Below are positions 9,243 through 21,200 of a stretch of 64,000 bases of DNA, piece by piece; the stretch's first letter is position 1; each line of letters starts with the position of its first letter. This stretch comes from Protula sp. h YS-2021 (Eukaryota; Annelida; Polychaeta; Sabellida; Serpulidae). The notes under the pieces were generated by a model. That model saw only the letters and a list, made by a program, of their open reading frames with translations, did no database searches and was not told the origin of the DNA. The stretch spans positions 17,502,603-17,566,602 of the forward strand of contig OX457027.1 in the NCBI GenBank assembly GCA_949752745.1, in the 5' to 3' direction. A program made the position numbers and the translations under genes.

Positions 9243-12200
9243 CTGTAACATTCAGAGAATTAATCAAGAAATTTGGTTCCCGCAGGGAAATCCAATACAT
9301 TGGTTTTTTTATTTTGAAAGAAGTTCGGCTAAAAATATATTTTATTCACATTTTATAAAACTATAACATTTCCGTCCCATTCGCAAATCCATATAAATTA
9401 AATCTTCACTTTTATATTTAACGATTTTTCACGAACGAGGAATAAATCGAATACAAGTATTGATATACATGTATATTACCATTACACTAAAGGACCACTT
9501 TAAAATGTTTCGCAATCGGCTACAAGGCCCCTCTGTGCACCCCCTTCTTCCTTATAAAGTGGCGCACTGCGCCCCCTCCTTCCTTACATGTAGCGCCACT
9601 CTGTGCACCCCTCCTCTTATAATGTGGCGCCCCACTGCGCCACCCTTACAACGTGGCGCCACTCTGCGCCTCCTCCCATTAAAATGTCTCGCGGCTCTAA
9701 GTTCTCTCCTCTCCCCCCCCCCCACCCGGTTAAATGTGTCGCCGCTCTGTGCCCCTCACAACGCAGGGCCGAGTTGTGCCCCCTCATCCTCGACGGTATT
9801 ACAAACGTGTGCGCGAACACATATATGATGAATTATTTAATGAACCTTTTCCGATTACGTTCAACACAGGTTACACATAAAGTCGGTTATTCACACACTA
9901 CTGAGGAACCACATGCCTTGCCTATGCATTTAAAATACATCGGGTAATATGACTGTTCCGTGGCCCGCTGAATTTCACTGGTCGGGCCGAAGTACGTGCC
10001 AAATGGTCCAAAATACGGGCCGGGTCAGAAAAAATAGATGTATAACAACAACTACGAGTACATAGCTGTACACAGACTAGGCACTCTTTGACTTGGCCAA
10101 ATTTCGTGTCTATTTCCAATGCTGCAAATGAGACTGCTTTCTATGTTTTTTTTTTTTTTTTTTTTGGTTTATTTCAGCATGTTTTTTACTCCTTATGTTT
10201 TTTACTCCTTATTTAAGCATTTCAGTGTTTGTCAAACCGGTCCCTCACAAATGACAAAATATTGTGTTTGGTACTCGAAGCCAACTTTGTCCACCCCGGC
10301 CCTTCCTAAAGTGCCAGGGAGCACATCTCACAACAATTTCGGGAGCCAAAATTTCCTAATACACAGCCCTTTACAACTTAATTTCATTTGCAATAAATCT
10401 TCTATAGAATGAGACTGAGAAATTAAAAAAAAATTAAGAACGTAGTTGTGGGTAAGAAAGTAATGCACATGTTTTACAGTAAGACAGGATATTTGCAGGA
10501 AGCACATGCGCATGCGGTCAGGAAATTCGAAGCCAGTTAATTAATTTCACTTATTAAATATTTTGAGTTGCCGAAATCACTCGCTGTATAATCTAACAGA
10601 ATGGCATATATTTGCCGAATCTTCAAATACTCACTCAGCCACGCGATTAGCAAGCGCTTTGGCCTCTTTTATTTCCTCGGGCTTTCCAGTATCAATAAGT
10701 ATAGTCGTGTGGAAGTTGCCATCACCAACGTGACCCACAATAGGCCCTACGTACAGCGAGAATGACAGAATCAGAAATCAACATATTGAAGGCCCATTGT
10801 TGACAGCCAAGATACATCAAACATATTATTGGCAAGCAGTAATTATACAGCAACCAACGTCTAAATATCTCACCGAACCGGCCTTCGTGTTTTTTTTTTT
10901 TTTTTTTTTTTTTGCTTTTTTTTTTGGGGGGGGGGGGGGGGGAGGGGGAGGGGTAGGGGTGATAGTTGTTGTTAGTTACATACAGCAAAAGGGTGTTGAC
11001 GATCACACAGGGAATATCCATGCTATGTACATATATATATAGAATTACATTCTGCGATCTTCCATGTCATGGCTTTTTATGATAAACCTACTGTTTAGCA
11101 GGTATGACGAGGCCGGTTTTTCCGATTATAAAATGCCAGGTAAGTCGGATATTGCTGACCCTGACACAGTTTAATAGCTCCAAACAAACCTATGTTTGTG
11201 CTGTTTCCAGTATTAGTCTAAAGATAATTTATTCAAAGACAAAGAAACATAAAGCACTAATATTAAAATAAATAAACAAGAAGAAAAAACAAATCCGAAA
11301 CAATAACAGGTAATTGACGGCGACCAACGTAGTGATACGAACACAGTGCAACTTTTCACAGGCGAGCCTTTTGCACACCCACAGACGGCGCTGATATTGG
11401 GACTTTCGGATATGCTGACAAACACACTGGCGTCAATGAGTCTTTCAAATTGTCAGAGAGATGTACTCTGAACTCACACACAGCTGTGTCACAACACTAA
11501 GCTGTAGTTACTACGGATATCAGGAGTATCCCTATATGTATCGTGTCACTACGTCAGTTGAGTAAATAGCTCGTTAGTAGCAGTCACCTAGGCTTGTGGG
11601 ATGGGCTTACAGGAGACTTGCACTCGTAAATCTCCCCCCCCCCCCTGGACTAACTATATTCCACTCACTCTGCAATTCTTGTAGCGAGGTATTTAGCTTC
11701 TCTCATCTCTGATTGGTTATTTGGATCAACCAATATAATCGAGTGGAAATTTCCATCTCCAACATGACCTACTATGGGACCTGCATAAAAGTCAAAACAG
11801 AATACGCTTTATAAGATTTTTTCACTTGAATACGCTTATGTGTTGGTTGCCAAGGACGCTGCAATTCCTTGCTACGGGAAGCGCTGCAAATGGACATAAC
11901 GACCGGAGCAACATAGTGTCACAGCACATGACGTCACAAATGACACATACAATCCATAAAAACAATTGCAGGGATAATCCTGGTCGGCGCCATGGCGCAT
12001 CGATTTTCTATACGAGGCACGCGATTTTCGCAAATGGCATACAAGACTTTGAGCATGCGCCGCAACTGTCCAAAATGCGATTGTTTAGTTAGTGGCTGTT
12101 TGCATTCGCTCTTTTATAACAATGTTTAAAAATCAGTCGTGTATTACCAATAAATAGTACGAACCGCTATAGCGTGTGTTTCATTACGGCAGGCATTAGC

Positions 12201-15200
12201 AGACTCTCCCCAAAAATGATGGCGCACCATAGCTGGAAAATGGCGCGTCTTTTTTTTTTCTTTTGGCCGTGCGCCTTTGGTAAATGCCGCTATATTTCAA
12301 GAATTGTCCCTGTAATTGGCTTTATGCGCAACACAATTATGTGGCACTTCAAAAACATTAAAACACTCAAAGAAAATTCTCTTTTGCCATGAAAGAAGGC
12401 AAATTATATATCGAACTGGAACAGAAACCTTTACGAGGCTGGGATTAATTTAATGACTTGAAGCTCACTTTAGCCACTGAAACCATAAATGCAAATCCCG
12501 TTTTCATGTGTTTTTTATTTATTAACTCCGTAGAGGGGTTTGGAATCTAAAAATACGTTCAAAATCGCTCCAAATTTAACGGTTTCCTCTCATTTTTTTT
12601 GTATATGTAACCTTGACCCATGGTCAAGGTCAAAATTTTATTCTATATTATACATAAACCGCAAACTGTTACCACAGAGGGGATTGATCGAAAATGAGGT
12701 CAAAATCGCTCTAACGGTTTGCGAGATAACACGTCACTTGACCGTAGACCTAGAAAATGTGGGTCAATGTTCAGATCCCGAAGTTGCAGTGCAAGAATGA
12801 TGTCACAACATCCAACGGTTCCCAGATTACACTTTCCCAAATAACGTCCCAAATGACCTTTGACCTGGAAAACGTAGGTGAAAGTTCAAAGCAAGAAGTC
12901 ACCCTAATGTTGTAACCCCGTAGAGAAGATGGAGTCCAAAAATGAGGTCAAAATCGCTCTATTTCTAATGGTTACACAGATAACACACCTCGCGTGACCG
13001 GTTACCTCGAAAATGAAGTCCAAGATCAGATCACGACGTTACCCTTACTGTAATGTGAGATAATGGTGAAGCCTGGAAACGAGGTCAAATACTCTAATGG
13101 TTTCCCAGATAACACAGGTTGAAAATCTAGGTCAAAGTCCAGATCACGAGTTACCTTTATGTAGTTGTAGAAGGGATGAAATGAGGTTAAAAAACTCTAA
13201 TGTAAACGAAAAAGGATATGAGTGTACTTCGCTTGTAGGTCATTTTACCACGAGATTATGGGAATTTCCCTGGTATTATTATGCCTGGATCGGGTTCTAA
13301 AAATAAGCTATCACGCTTCTCAGATGTCTACTATATCTTTTAAAATTTTACCATTGCTCTCTACGACTCTTTTCCAATATTTTATGGCTGTGTAAAGAGC
13401 TACCAAGCCCGGATCACCTGCGTTTTCCTGGAAATAAAGGCCAGAACCAAATTTAGATGAAAACTGCACCTTCAGGCTTGTTTTGGCAGCAGGTCGTGAT
13501 AAACTGCCACACAGCTTTTTTTCGATTTTAAAACGTCATATAAGTTCGGTGCTGGTTAATCTGTAGCAGTTTACTAGCTCCCAACTACTTGTTAATCCTG
13601 TGTCCAGTGTTATTCTAAAGACAATTTATTCAATGATAAATAAACAGAAAACACAGTTATTAAAATAAATAAACACACACAAAAAAAGCAAAGAAACAAT
13701 AACAGGTAAATTGACGCCGACCAACCTAGTGATACGAACACAGTGCAACTTTTCACAGGCCAGCCTTTTGCACAACCACAGACGCGGTTGATATTCAGAC
13801 TTTCGGTTATGAGAAGCTAAGAAACACATTGGTGTGAATGGGTCTTTCAAACTACAGCGACCGGTACAAACCAACATCAGTGTGTCCGAACACGTTAAAC
13901 ACTTTTATTAGCCAGCTACGTCCCGTTTGTTTTTTGTAAAAAAAAATAAATGCACCACCCCCACCCTACCATCCTTTTCCTCTGATTGCTCTGCCTTAGG
14001 TTTACAAAGTTTAATTGTAACAATTTTGTACCATTTCAAATTATCAGACTTTTTATCTTCTATAAATATATCTGAATACGTATATATGATTTGCTCAGAA
14101 GTTACCAAACCTTTATCTCATTCCTAAGATGTCCCTGAGATGTCCCGTTCTCATAACCTGACTGGTGGGTATTTTAATCCGCTGTCGGGTGGGCATCTTA
14201 ATCCTTAATTTCTATATACGTATAAATACAAGTTAAGCAGTGCGACATGTGGTCACTTTAAACTGGGATTATACTTGACGTCTTTTTAATCCGGGTCTGG
14301 AAGGTGGTCAGCACAGAGGTTTTACCGCCAGGCGTCTTTTTTTATAATCCAGGTCACGATTGCCATATATGGAATAATTCGGCGGTGAACACGGTTTTCT
14401 TGTCAGCCGGGTAAAATCAATAGACAGTCCTGCAGAGGCGTTCAAACACGACCATAACAGAAAAATCCCATAGAAAATGCTGTGTCATGCTATGTCCGGC
14501 CAGCCAACTTATGAACTGGTTAAAAAAGGTACCACCTACCCTCTCAGTCTCCCTGCTGCTCATCAAACCCCACTCGCTCACGTGCTCACCTCGGAAAGGC
14601 TCTGCATTCCTCTCACTACCCCCTTACTTCTTACCGAATCTCCCTGCACCAAAACTTGTATCAGAAGCTGCTTACGCCCGAGTTTGCAATCACGTTATGG
14701 TGTTATGTGGCATCACGCATTGTCCAATACGCGCCAGCTACAATAGCAACTGGCAGTCTAACTCAAGGAATACGGCATAAGTTGAAATTTTCGCCAGGAA
14801 TTAATTTTCGCTATTTTCGCATGGCACAGGAAATTCGCGAGCATTAATTCCGGCGCAAAGTTATGCCAAATATTAGATAAAATTTTATGCAATAAATATC
14901 TTGCAAATGTTTATCACCTTCCATAATATCCATTGTGTATGGTCCCATGTACACTTCCAGCAGAGTGACCTTCCCCCCCCCCCCCCCTTCCCCGGAATTC
15001 ATGGGAGAATCGGTTGAGGCGCGATGTTTGCATGAAGCCTTGCATCAACTACTACAGCATCCAGCAGTCCCACCCAAGTGATGACCCCACCAAGTTTTAC
15101 CCCACTCATCACTCGAGAGTAGTCGTGTCAAGGAAGCCAAGTGTCCACAACACGTTTTGACATCACATGACGTCATGCGCTGCGCTATACGCGCCAAATA

Positions 15201-18200
15201 CATAACGAAGTGTCGGACACATTCAAGGCATTATCCTACCAAGTTTAAAGCTGATGCGATGATTCATTCTGCAGTTACAGTGAGACGCATTTTTTCACGT
15301 TTTGACGTCACATGACGTCACACGTTGCAAAATATTGGTAAAATCAAAAGCATACGGCGGACCCATTCAAGACGTAATCCCACAAAGTTCGAAGCTGATC
15401 CGACTTGTCCATCCAAAGGAATTATCCTACCAAGTTTTAAGTTGATCCAACGTTCTAACGTCATATAACGTCACGCATTGTCCAATATATGTGAAATACA
15501 ATTCCAACCGGCGGACCAACCAAAGGCATAATTGCACCAAGTTTGAACCTGATCTGACCTTTCGTTCATGTTAACATAATCAAGTGTCTACAGCAGACGC
15601 ACGCACATACAGAAATACAAAACAAAATGGTTCCCATTTACGAGCTGTGTCACAAAACTAAGCTATCGTTACTACGGATATAAGGAGTTGCACTGTATGT
15701 ATCGTATCACTACGTTAGTTGAGTAAATAACTGGTTAGCAGCAGTCACCTAGGCTTGTGGGTGGGACTGATAGGTGGATTTCACTCTCCCTGGACTAGCT
15801 ATACTCCACTCACTCTGCAATTCTTGTAGCGAGGTATTTAGCTTCTCTCATCTCTGATTGGTTATTTGGATCAAACAATAATTTTACATTTGAATTCTGC
15901 CATACATGGTTGGCTAAATTTGCAGTTCGTTAAGTGAAGCGCTGCAGATGGACATAAAGGTCGGACCAATGTTAAAGTGTTGCATCACAGGGAATTACTT
16001 ACAAAATGATATACACTGAGTGACGAACAAAAGCGACGGAGAAAAGCAGAAGATACTGTCCGATCAAAAGCCGGACAATTGCAGGAATAATTCTGGATTG
16101 CGCCATGGCGCATCGATTTTCTATACGGCACGCGACTTTCCCAGATGGCAAACAAAATTTTTCAGCATGAACAGTTCTGACGTGTGTTTCAATACGGTAG
16201 GCTTTAGAAGATTGTTCAAATGAGGACGCATCATGGCTCGAAAATGGCGCATATTTTTTAGTTTTTTTATTTTTGCCTTGCGCCTTTGGGAAACGCCGCT
16301 AGATTTCAAGAATTGTCCATGCAATCGTTTTTATCTGAGACACAATTATGTGCCTTCTCAAAAACATTTAAACGCTCAGAGAAAATTTTCTTTCTTCCAT
16401 GACAGAAAGGTAGCCAATAAAAGCCACAACCACTAACCCCCCCCCCCCCCCACACACACATTTATGATAATTACTTCTCTATCTGCCTTTGATCATTTTA
16501 CATATATTACATAATACATAAATTATACCGAATACTTAAGTGCTGTCACCTTTTTCAAATAGTCGAGAATTGCTGTGTTTTAAGGTTTGTTATGTATATT
16601 CGCATACACACCTATGAGAGAGGATTCCTTTATATCTTCCTTCGTCTGCACGATGATTTCCGGTAAGTTTGATATCGGAACACACACATCGGTTGTTAGC
16701 GCCTAATTAAAACATTAATACAGGCATGTAAATGATATAAGCGAACTCTACTATGCTGAGGAGGACCTCGGGTCTTTCCAGAAAATATAATGAAATATAA
16801 TGGGTAGTCTGACACCGAAGGATGAGTAAACTTTGTAGACTCTGACGTCTTCAATTATCTCCGAAATGTTAAGTTAAACAGAAATCGCTCGTGCTGAAGT
16901 TATTTGATCTGGAGCACTTAGATATACATGCAAATCATTATTGTGTGAACAATCTACATTTAGGAAGCTACCCTGGACCCAGGCCGCAGGTTGAGGCACG
17001 CGTAGAAGGCATTGTGTCTGGCCGTCCACAGCCGCTTTCTGTCCTCGGGATCAGAGGCGTATTCAAAGTCTGAGCCGCCATTCATGTGTGCTATCTCACC
17101 TGTAGGTGGATGATAAATAAACACGGGCGTCTGTATTAACGTCACAGCTTCACCGAACAAACTCCGACTCGGCGAATTCTTAACACACTGTACATGCTAA
17201 TGACATTATTCTAACAGCGGAATCTCAGCGAAGCTCCAACTCTAATATTTAAAATATAAACATCACTTGTAATCCTTTAATTCCAATTTTACATTAACCT
17301 TAAGGTACTGCACAAAGGAAACCCCTCCACCGGACGATTTACAAAAGCTCTGACACGATGCTTTACGTACCGACTTGTTTTGCCTGGTCTACAAGCTCTG
17401 ACACGATGCTTTACGTACCGACTTGTTTCGCCTGGTCTACAAGCTTTGACACGATGCTTTACGTACCGACTTGTTTCGCCTGGTCTACAAGCTTTGACAC
17501 GATGCTTTACGTACCGACTTGTTTCGCCTGGTCTACAAGCTCTGACACGATGCTTTACGTACCGACTTGTTTCGTCTGGTCTACAATCTTTGACACGATG
17601 CTTTACGTACCGACTTGTTTCGCCTGGGCTACAAGCTCTGACACGATGCTTTACGTACCGACTTGTTTCGCCTGGTCTACAAGCTTTGACACGATGCTTT
17701 ACGTACCGACTTGTTTCGCCTGGTCTACAAGCTTTGACACGATGCTTTACGTACCGACTTGTTTCGCCTGGTCTACAAGCTCTGACACGATGCTTTACGT
17801 ACCGACTTGTTTCGTCTGGTCTACAATCTTTGACACGATGCTTTACGTACCGACTTGTTTCGCCTGGGCTACAAGCTCTGACACGATGCTTTACGTACCG
17901 ACTTGTTTCGCCTGCTCTACAAGCTTTGACACGATGCTTTACGTACCGACTTGTTTCGCCTGGTCTACAAGCTCTGACACGATGCTTTACGTACCGACTT
18001 GTTTCGCCTGGTCTACAAGCTCTGACACGATGCTTTACGTACCGACTTGTTTCGTCTGGTCTACAATCTTTGACACGATGCTTTACGTACCGACTTGTTT
18101 CGCCTGGGCTACAAGCTCTGACACGATGCTTTACGTACCGACTTGTTTCGCCTGGTCTACAAGCTTTGACACGATGCTTTACGTATCGACTTGTTTCGCC

Positions 18201-21200
18201 TGGTCTACAAGCTTTGACACGATGCTTTACGTATCGACTTGTTTCGCCTGGTCTACAAGCTTTGACACGATGCTTTACGTACCGACTTGTTTCGCCTGGT
18301 CTACAATCTTTGACACGATGCTTCACGTACCGACTTGTTTCGCCTGGTCTACAAGCTTTGACACGGTGCTTCACGTACCGACTTGTTTCGCCTGGTCTAC
18401 AAGCTCTGACACGATGCTTTACGTACCGACTTGTTTCGCCTGCTCTACAAGCTTTGACACGATGCTTTACGTACCGACTTGTTTCGCCTGGTCTACAAGC
18501 TTTGACACGATGCTTTACGTACCGACTTGTTTCGCCTGGTCTACAAGCTCTGACACGATGCTTTACGTACCGACTTGTTTCGTCTGGTCTACAATCTTTG
18601 ACACGATGCTTTACGTACCGACTTGTTTCGCCTGGGCTACAAGCTCTGACACGATGCTTTACGTACCGACTTGTTTCGCCTGGTCTACAAGCTTTGACAC
18701 GATGCTTTACGTATAGACTTGTTTCGCCTGGTCTACAAGCTTTGACACGATGCTTTACGTATCGACTTGTTTCGCCTGGTCTACAAGCTTTGACACGATG
18801 CTTTACGTACCGACTTGTTTCGCCTGGTCTACAATCTTTGACACGATGCTTCACGTACCGACTTGTTTCGCCTGGTCTACAAGCTTTGACACGGTGCTTC
18901 ACGTACCGACTTGTTTCGCCTGGTCTACAAGCTCTGACACGATGCTTTACGTACCGACTTGTTTCGCCTGGGCTACAAGCTCTGACACGATGCTTTACGT
19001 ACCGACTTGTTTCGCCTGGTCTACAAGCTTTGACACGATGCTTTACGTATCGACTTGTTTCGCCTGGTCTACAAGCTTTGACACGATGCTTTACGTATCG
19101 ACTTGTTTCGCCTGGTCTACAAGCTTTGACACGATGCTTTACGTACCGACTTGTTTCGTCTGGTCTACAATCTTTGACACGATGCTTCACGTACCGACTT
19201 GTTTCGCCTGGTCTACAAGCTTTGACACGGTGCTTTACGTACCGACTTGTTTCGCCTGGTCTACAGTGGCGCCCTCCGATCCGTGGAACTCCAAGAACAG
19301 CGTGGGGGTTTCTCTCAGCGACAATTTACTGTACTTGTTACACGCATGTATTTGTACTTCATCCAGAAACTCTGAAAAGTAAAAATAAAACTTGTGGACA
19401 ACCTTGTGAGCATTCGAAGAAGTATTCAAAGTATTCAAAGAAGTATTCAAAGTATTGAAAGAAAGTACCCTCTGTGGCAGTATAACTCACGTGTTTACTG
19501 CATCAAAGACTAGAAAACACAGACGATTTGAAACTTATCCCTTTTTGAAGATGAGTTTACACCACCAGTGACTGTGTATATACAGAGAAACACACAACTG
19601 AGAATGGGACATAGTAATAGTTTTTAGCGAGAAGTTGAAGTCCTGACCTATTCTTGCGACAGGGATTCCGCTCTGTAGCGTCATCACGGTGGTGTCCACC
19701 GCTGATTGGACATCAGGGAACCCACACACGGCAGCCACCGTCTGTAAATACATCAACGCTTTACGACAACGACGACCATATTGGGTGGCACCTGCCAAAG
19801 GAACAAGTGGGAAGAATACGGTAAAACAGTAGTAGCTTTCCTAATCATGTATTCCACAAGAACTCACCTTACAGGCTCGTGCTACCAGTGTTCTGGACTG
19901 CGTGAGCTATTTCGGATCATTCCACTCGTTCGTGTGCTTTTACCATGATATATACATAATGATTAAACTAGAGCAGTGTACATAGCCCACATATTCCCCA
20001 CTGCCCCCCCCCCCCCATCATCAGTTAATCAAGAGCTGAAATTTTCCAAGCCCAGTTGGTGCATTTTCCTTGGACGCACCCGGCCCATGTACAATACTGA
20101 TCTGTGTTTGTTCCCATAGAAGCTACATACCAAGTTTCATTAATATCCTTGCAGCAGTTTTTAAATTATCGTGTTAACAAGCTGTTGATGACAGACCGAC
20201 AGATCGACACCCGGTCGATTCGCATATATCCCCCCCCCCCCGGAATATACTACGTAACTCGCACTGGGTTTAACTCAACACTCCGGTCAATTATATTATT
20301 AGAAAAACCATTACCGTCCTTTTGATTTGGAAGTATACCGGATAATAGCACAAATTTGTCAAAACGCATACATGTTTTTGGCGAATCTCAAAATGGTTGA
20401 GGACCATCGAGAAATCGTGCTTCGTATATCTGTACGCGTTCAAGACTGTTAGAACTAGTGTTTTTTGTGTTAGCGTTAAAAACTGAGGTCTTAATTTTTT
20501 GGTTCCGCCAATGTTCTGGTAAATCACCATAAAAGGAGATAGGCAGGCCAGACTAGTATAAGGACCATTCATGTTACACCTGAAACGATCCAGTCTAAAC
20601 TCTCAGTAGTAGGGTTTTGAAAATTGGGAAAAGTTTATTTATTTACTTATTTATTATTTACTTTATTATTATTGCTATTTTTTATTTATTTTTTTAATGG
20701 GGGATGGTAAAAATTTCCGCCATTTCATTAGTTTTCGTGAATGACAAGTAACGGTAACAGTAAAGTAGTGCAAGTACCGTAGTAGTACTAGTGGTAGTAC
20801 TAGTAGTAGTACTTCCAAAGTTGTCCAGCGCCCATACGTGGCCACATGCATACATATGGACTGCGCAGAAGCCCATAACAGGCCACAAAAGGTCACAAAA
20901 GCCTTACTAATTTCAACACTTACTGATTCTGGAATACCATAGAGTTTTAACGTTGCTTTTGTGATGAATCCCAATGTGCCTTCGGAGCCCACAAACAAAT
21001 TGGTCAAGTTATATCCAGCCGATGTCTTTCTGAAAAATAGAAAACCCGTCTCACTATGTGCCTAAAGGTTGATCACTCCACAATGTTTTTTCAAGATATT
21101 AAATTGCTTGCAAATGCATGCAACGCAACTCTTCTAAGGCAGGATTTCAAAGAATGACTTTGTAAACCGGTAGGACACTCTGTTTCACATATTTTGTCAA

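Follow-up and report, generated by a model that had tools for sequence, protein, structure and literature searches.

A minisatellite in the LDHD gene of the serpulid worm Protula sp. h YS-2021 repeats the end of an exon together with its 5' splice site. The gene lies on the minus strand of a stretch of 64,000 nucleotides (assembly GCA_949752745.1, contig OX457027.1, forward-strand positions 17,502,603 to 17,566,602), which was analysed as a whole and is called the window here; coordinates count from its first letter. The array occupies 17345..19264 (minus strand) and consists of 40 copies of a 48-bp unit, each with 22 nt of exon end and 26 nt of intron start. Behind the putative authentic donor of exon 8 there are thus 39 decoy donor positions in 48-bp steps (17365..19194, minus strand). 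Very probably the array is a mutational by-product of the type known from amphioxus as 'mirages', with decoys that are mostly ignored and splicing that takes place mainly from copy 1. Splice-site minisatellites are already known, and the LDHD array is a further example, notable for its regularity, its near-identical donors and its uniform stop.

The array in the LDHD reading frame

The assignable LDHD exons extend from about 22919 to 9074 (exon 2 was assigned by eye). A conceptual protein was built from exons 3-12 and has 424 residues, the first two of which do not come from exon 3. Its residues 4-423 align without gaps to the solved mitochondrial D-lactate dehydrogenase 8jdc_A (E 1.7e-179), and this full-length similarity to a solved member places the gene in the LDHD family. 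Exon 8 (19243..19371, minus strand, 129 nt) is delimited by the acceptor acttttcag before 19371 and the donor GTACGT at 19242, in a frame that is continuous with both flanking exons and with the 8jdc_A alignment. It encodes EFLDEVQ...DQAKQVG, its DNA ends with ...CAAGTCG directly before GTACGT, and its final 22 nt are the exonic portion of repeat copy 1. Exon 9 (16972..17099, minus strand), assigned from the frame and the same alignment, starts with GTGAGATAG (Gly-Glu-Ile). Intron 8 between them (17100..19242, minus strand) measures 2143 nt, or 271 nt if the 39 units are subtracted. This reduced length is near that of four of the eight other LDHD introns measured (234, 240, 276 and 269 nt); the remaining four have 454, 1182, 2426 and 4831 nt.

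Tandem Repeats Finder (TRF) called the array at 17345-19265 with a period of 48, 40.0 copies, 95% match and 0% indel. Cutting it in register placed copy 1 at 19264..19217 and copy 40 at 17392..17345, again without indels. The original prediction, made from the letters of the DNA, had given the same unit, composition and copy number; its limit at 19264 was correct, but its other limit, 17341, lay 4 bases too far. As donor hexamer, 34 of the 40 copies have GTACGT, namely copy 1 (19237..19242, minus strand), taken as the authentic 5' splice site from the homolog spacing described below, and 33 of the 39 intronic copies, for which about 33 had been predicted. The six others read ATACGT (copies 4, 5, 11, 12, 22 and 23). 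An 18-base donor pattern occurred 34 times in the window, always within the array, and 0 times in 100 shuffles. Outside the array, nothing in the window came within 16 mismatches of the 48-bp unit. The unit was not found elsewhere in the 863-Mb assembly (218 contigs), where at least 39 matches were obtained, all in the LDHD array and exon. A dispersed repeat or satellite was therefore rejected.

Three long open frames cross the array, at 17281-19458 (plus strand, 725 aa), 17304-18716 (plus strand, 470 aa) and 17289-19325 (minus strand, 678 aa). They exist because 48 is a multiple of three, so that a stop-free unit stays open in every copy, and gene finders could call false repeat proteins from them.

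Splicing from donor 1 leaves 34 residues between the FHGS-type and LWxARH-type motifs. The same spacing was found in 119 of 120 homologs and one residue less (33) in the last; these homologs were the best of 8000 scored proteins, those with names are mostly vertebrate, and none is a transcript of this species. Only donor 1 reproduces the spacing of the protein family across the exon 8/9 junction. This supports, indirectly, that donor 1 is the functional 5' splice site, and the earlier placing of the donor at 19242 in copy 1, with its phase, agrees with the frame and the 8jdc_A alignment. A second LDHD gene or a retrocopy showing the spliced junction was rejected, as all seven matches of the 208-residue C-terminal half lay in this locus.

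The codon that follows G-GT-ACG in copy 1 is TAA in the LDHD frame, and the same place holds 35 TAA and 5 TGA over the 40 units. When exon 8 was extended to decoy 1, 2, 5 or 39, the first stop codon was identical and located in copy 1, and therefore any decoy would give the same protein end. Both the stop directly after the donor and the shortening of the reading frame by decoy use had been anticipated. An mRNA ending its exon at a decoy would probably be degraded by nonsense-mediated decay (NMD).

Donor choice

What could direct splicing to copy 1 was considered from donor strength, RNA structure and position. Pairing with U1 was computed with an 11-nt U1 5' end. The duplex energy was -6.7 kcal/mol for copy 1 and for 28 of the 33 intact decoys, -5.9 kcal/mol for the 5 other intact decoys and -1.1 kcal/mol for the six ATACGT copies. 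Donor strength was rejected as the reason for the choice of copy 1, since most intact decoys equal it. The donor holds the palindrome UACGUA, and the predicted unpaired probability of the 9-nt donor in copy 1 versus the decoy mean was 0.016 versus 0.005 at a span of 60, 0.001 versus 0.003 at a span of 100 and 0.001 versus 0.001 at a span of 200. As the difference has no consistent direction over these spans, hiding of the decoys by RNA structure was rejected too. Donor strength and accessibility thus do not mark copy 1, which leaves position, and we infer that exon definition picks it. Copy 1 is nearest to the acceptor and body of the 129-nt exon, and the intron would be shortest if the last copy were used.

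Exon 8 would accordingly be recognised from its upstream acceptor and from exonic signals, and the donor nearest to the exon body would win. The decoys would then be removed along with the intron, as suggested by the spacing in the protein family, the intact gene and the published amphioxus mirages. Leakage to any decoy would lead to the same stop, presumably followed by NMD of such mRNA. The original prediction had offered the array as a natural test of donor choice. This proposal is fair, but arrays of such kind have already been published, namely the amphioxus mirages, the ABCA7 variable number tandem repeat (VNTR) and the IFI6 minisatellite. As a test bed the LDHD array is convenient, with a nearly identical donor every 48 nt: exon definition predicts use of copy 1 and intron definition use of copy 40, which would give the 271-nt intron.

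Origin, published counterparts and alternatives

Residues encoded by the exonic portion of the unit recur in homologs (DQAK-x-VGE in P0002, P0003 and P0100), and therefore the exon is the source and came first. The 40 units belong to 13 types, in the order ABCDDEFGBHDIEJKHHLGBHDDEJKEHLJKHHEJKHHEM. This string is self-similar at lag 11 (3 of 2000 shuffles were as good) and at lag 5 (27 of 2000), among 24 lags listed and without correction, and JKHHE is exactly repeated in copies 30-34 and 35-39. The order of unit types shows block duplication. Each of the two edge units, copies 1 and 40, belongs to a type found nowhere else in the array. Mirages are described as homogenised inside with the edges excluded, and the internal block repeats and single-occurrence edge types correspond to that, although 5 of the 13 types occur once, which makes it a weak test. 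The mean pairwise difference between units is 2.04 of 48 positions (4.2%), and 10 of the 48 positions vary. Two of these lie inside the 9-nt donor versus 1.9 expected, so that a test of low power gave no signal of selection for or against decoy donors. The placement of ATACGT in three repeated blocks suggests few mutation events.

The genomic background was sampled in 20 stretches of 10 kb from the same assembly, 18 at arbitrary round coordinates and 2 beside the window, not chosen as genic, and arrays were counted from TRF output if they had a period of at least 15 and at least 10 copies, after merging. There were 22 merged arrays in 200 kb, covering 9.4% of the bases and present in 11 of the 20 stretches. 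Coverage ranged widely, from zero in 9 stretches to 38% in a single one. In such a minisatellite-rich genome an array on the edge of an exon needs no special cause and is not surprising. We propose that a tandem duplication took in, by chance, the final part of LDHD exon 8 along with the splice donor, and that the array may then have grown to 40 copies through duplication of multi-unit blocks. Its spread was probably recent.

Arrays on splice sites are known from several genes. The amphioxus mirages are minisatellite-like tandem duplications of exon-intron boundaries, unstable in length and described as not disturbing regular splicing; the unit measures 10-72 bp in Adh3 and, in the globins, 150-160 bp (PMC3087553). 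A later paper added TnC and PGBD5, the latter as a case likened to mirages, and it also states that mirages do not interfere with regular splicing (PMC3902484). The LDHD array has 40 units of 48 bp, a length within the range given for Adh3, and its unit spans the boundary and carries the splice signal. Among the amphioxus cases (Adh3, the globins BflGb6 and BflGb9, and TnC), BflGb9 is alike in that the 3' boundary of its exon 2 is duplicated. The two BflGb6 haplotypes have 6 and 3 repeat units, in contrast to 40 copies here, and the gene is a different one, LDHD, in a species that the LDHD tree places with Capitella and not with Branchiostoma. Splicing and length instability were reported for the mirages, whereas the LDHD array is known from the sequence of one assembly.

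In human ABCA7, the VNTR of intron 18 has 25-bp units starting at the exon-18 donor and 12 to about 427 copies in people; retention of one unit leads to an early stop and length correlates with lower expression, for which the authors found no link through NMD (PMC5954066). The repeats are likewise intronic and directly follow the exon, with a unit that starts with the donor GT. A decoy donor one unit downstream is used there, with a frameshift and early stop, and the LDHD decoys would also meet a stop. Since the ABCA7 unit begins at GT it repeats no exon sequence, whereas the LDHD unit includes 22 nt of exon. Links to expression and to exon-19 skipping were reported for ABCA7. Human IFI6 (6-16, G1P3) has a minisatellite with multiple splice donors (1995 paper cited in PMC4526556 and PMC2572611). 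Two of its downstream repeat units serve as donors, where the LDHD decoys are candidate donors, and it yields three mRNA species encoding isoforms, whereas any LDHD decoy would lead to an immediate stop.

A further paper counts 792 human introns that lie within tandem repeats and also treats dual-specific AGGT sites (PMC10809524). As in LDHD, the splice sites of human UBC and VCX3A are repeated along with the tandem repeat unit, but there the repeated AGGT is used as a 5' and also as a 3' splice site, and the repeats that are spliced are coding. The LDHD array lies in an intron, and its 48-bp consensus, with CGGT at the donor, lacks AGGT. For human paralogs, the appearance of new introns has been discussed together with repeats at the borders of exons and introns (PMC2812944). 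Minisatellite-like repeats occur in intron 1 of earthworm metallothionein genes, where the available part of the paper does not mention splice sites in the unit (PMC12783039). Judged by titles and abstracts, none of the papers listed in a literature search dealt with a minisatellite that repeats a splice site of LDHD or of an annelid gene; this is weak evidence of absence, because subscription papers were mostly outside the search. As a by-product, the LDHD array would add a very regular case to a short list of splice-site minisatellites.

Several observations speak against a by-product whose decoys are mostly ignored. The window has just one array of at least 10 copies, 9 of the 20 background stretches have none, and these stretches were not selected as genic. 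Neither U1 energy nor predicted accessibility accounts for copy 1 winning, and the use of donor 1 was deduced from homolog spacing and not from transcripts. The +1 G>A change in six decoys could be read as selection against decoys. Changed splicing and reduced expression have been associated with the comparable ABCA7 array, so that the words 'mostly ignored' may not hold for LDHD. The ABCA7 case, with its inverse correlation between length and expression and its single-unit retention (PMC5954066), also favours an alternative in which the 33 near-identical decoys bind U1 and draw length-dependent splicing into the early-stop product, so that copy number sets LDHD output. Such an effect would fit with the U1 pairing of 28 of the 33, which equals that of the real donor, and with the stop in copy 1 that decoy use meets. 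Still, we consider it unlikely, as there is no sign of selection maintaining decoy donors (in the low-power test of variable sites given above) and as splicing was reported to be undisturbed by the amphioxus mirages. Somewhat more doubtful still is its extension to a dial on a metabolic enzyme, in which 34 near-identical donors would compete in cis, the decoy share with its common early stop would set LDHD output and length variation would give heritable variation in expression. The decoys may have an effect on LDHD dosage, or may adjust U1 occupancy, the level of the transcript or the speed of splicing, as the original prediction had asked; no result supports either.

The remaining alternatives are far less probable. 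Long near-identical arrays are hard to assemble, and the number of copies could have been invented or inflated by the assembler. Given 13 types of unit whose order is non-trivial and includes repeated blocks, single-occurrence types at the edges, no indels and a contig of 103 Mb, we think this very improbable, though the copy number of 40 may be wrong. Least credible is a ladder of microexons, in which TTGTAG/ACC...GTCG/GTACGT in each unit would delimit an 18-nt in-frame microexon (DQAKQV) and each step would add six residues. All 39 intronic 18-mers keep the reading frame open when placed between exon 8 and exon 9, and the pyrimidine fraction before the AG, 0.47-0.53 in the five unit acceptors scored, falls within the 0.47-0.82 of the gene's 11 assigned acceptors. 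However, the pyrimidine runs before the AG are short, the distance from a donor to the AG of the next unit is only 30 nt, so that units would need skipping, and the spacing exceeds 34 residues in none of the 120 homologs. If the array is a by-product, it could also carry a hazard: the broken +1 decoy ATACGT in copy 4, 144 bp from the real donor, could enter that donor by gene conversion.

LDHD relatives and other features of the locus

In a tree of 14 LDHD proteins the query groups with that of the annelid Capitella and two further proteins (97/97). It stands apart from Branchiostoma, fish, frog, two hemichordates, two crinoids, Octopus, Owenia and one further protein. Owenia is an annelid as well, and as it lies apart from the Capitella group the LDHD tree does not keep annelids together. 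The identity of the query to B. belcheri is 70%, the same as to Capitella. On the LDHD sequence, an annelid is thus a possible placement for the species and an amphioxus an unlikely one. One rotifer LDHD-like protein (P0001, Rotaria sp., 644 aa) appears by eye to join an incomplete LDHD to another, more complete one, which is either a tandem gene fusion or a merge made by gene prediction.

The LDHD gene itself has two homologous versions of exon 11 on the minus strand, at 11780..11669 (exon 11a) and 10746..10635, each of 112 nt with AG and GT signals. They carry the GHVGDGNFH motif and are candidate mutually exclusive exons. A block that includes exon 11a has a second copy, in three pieces of 79-85% identity (15643-16407 and 11482-12397). 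In the copy at 15643-15880, roughly the 3' half of the exon is retained together with the donor, without the GHVGDGNFH part. A stretch of about 285 bp, with 82% identity between its two copies, flanks exon 11a on both sides (11167-11449 and 13567-13851) and is perhaps the remnant of a mobile element.

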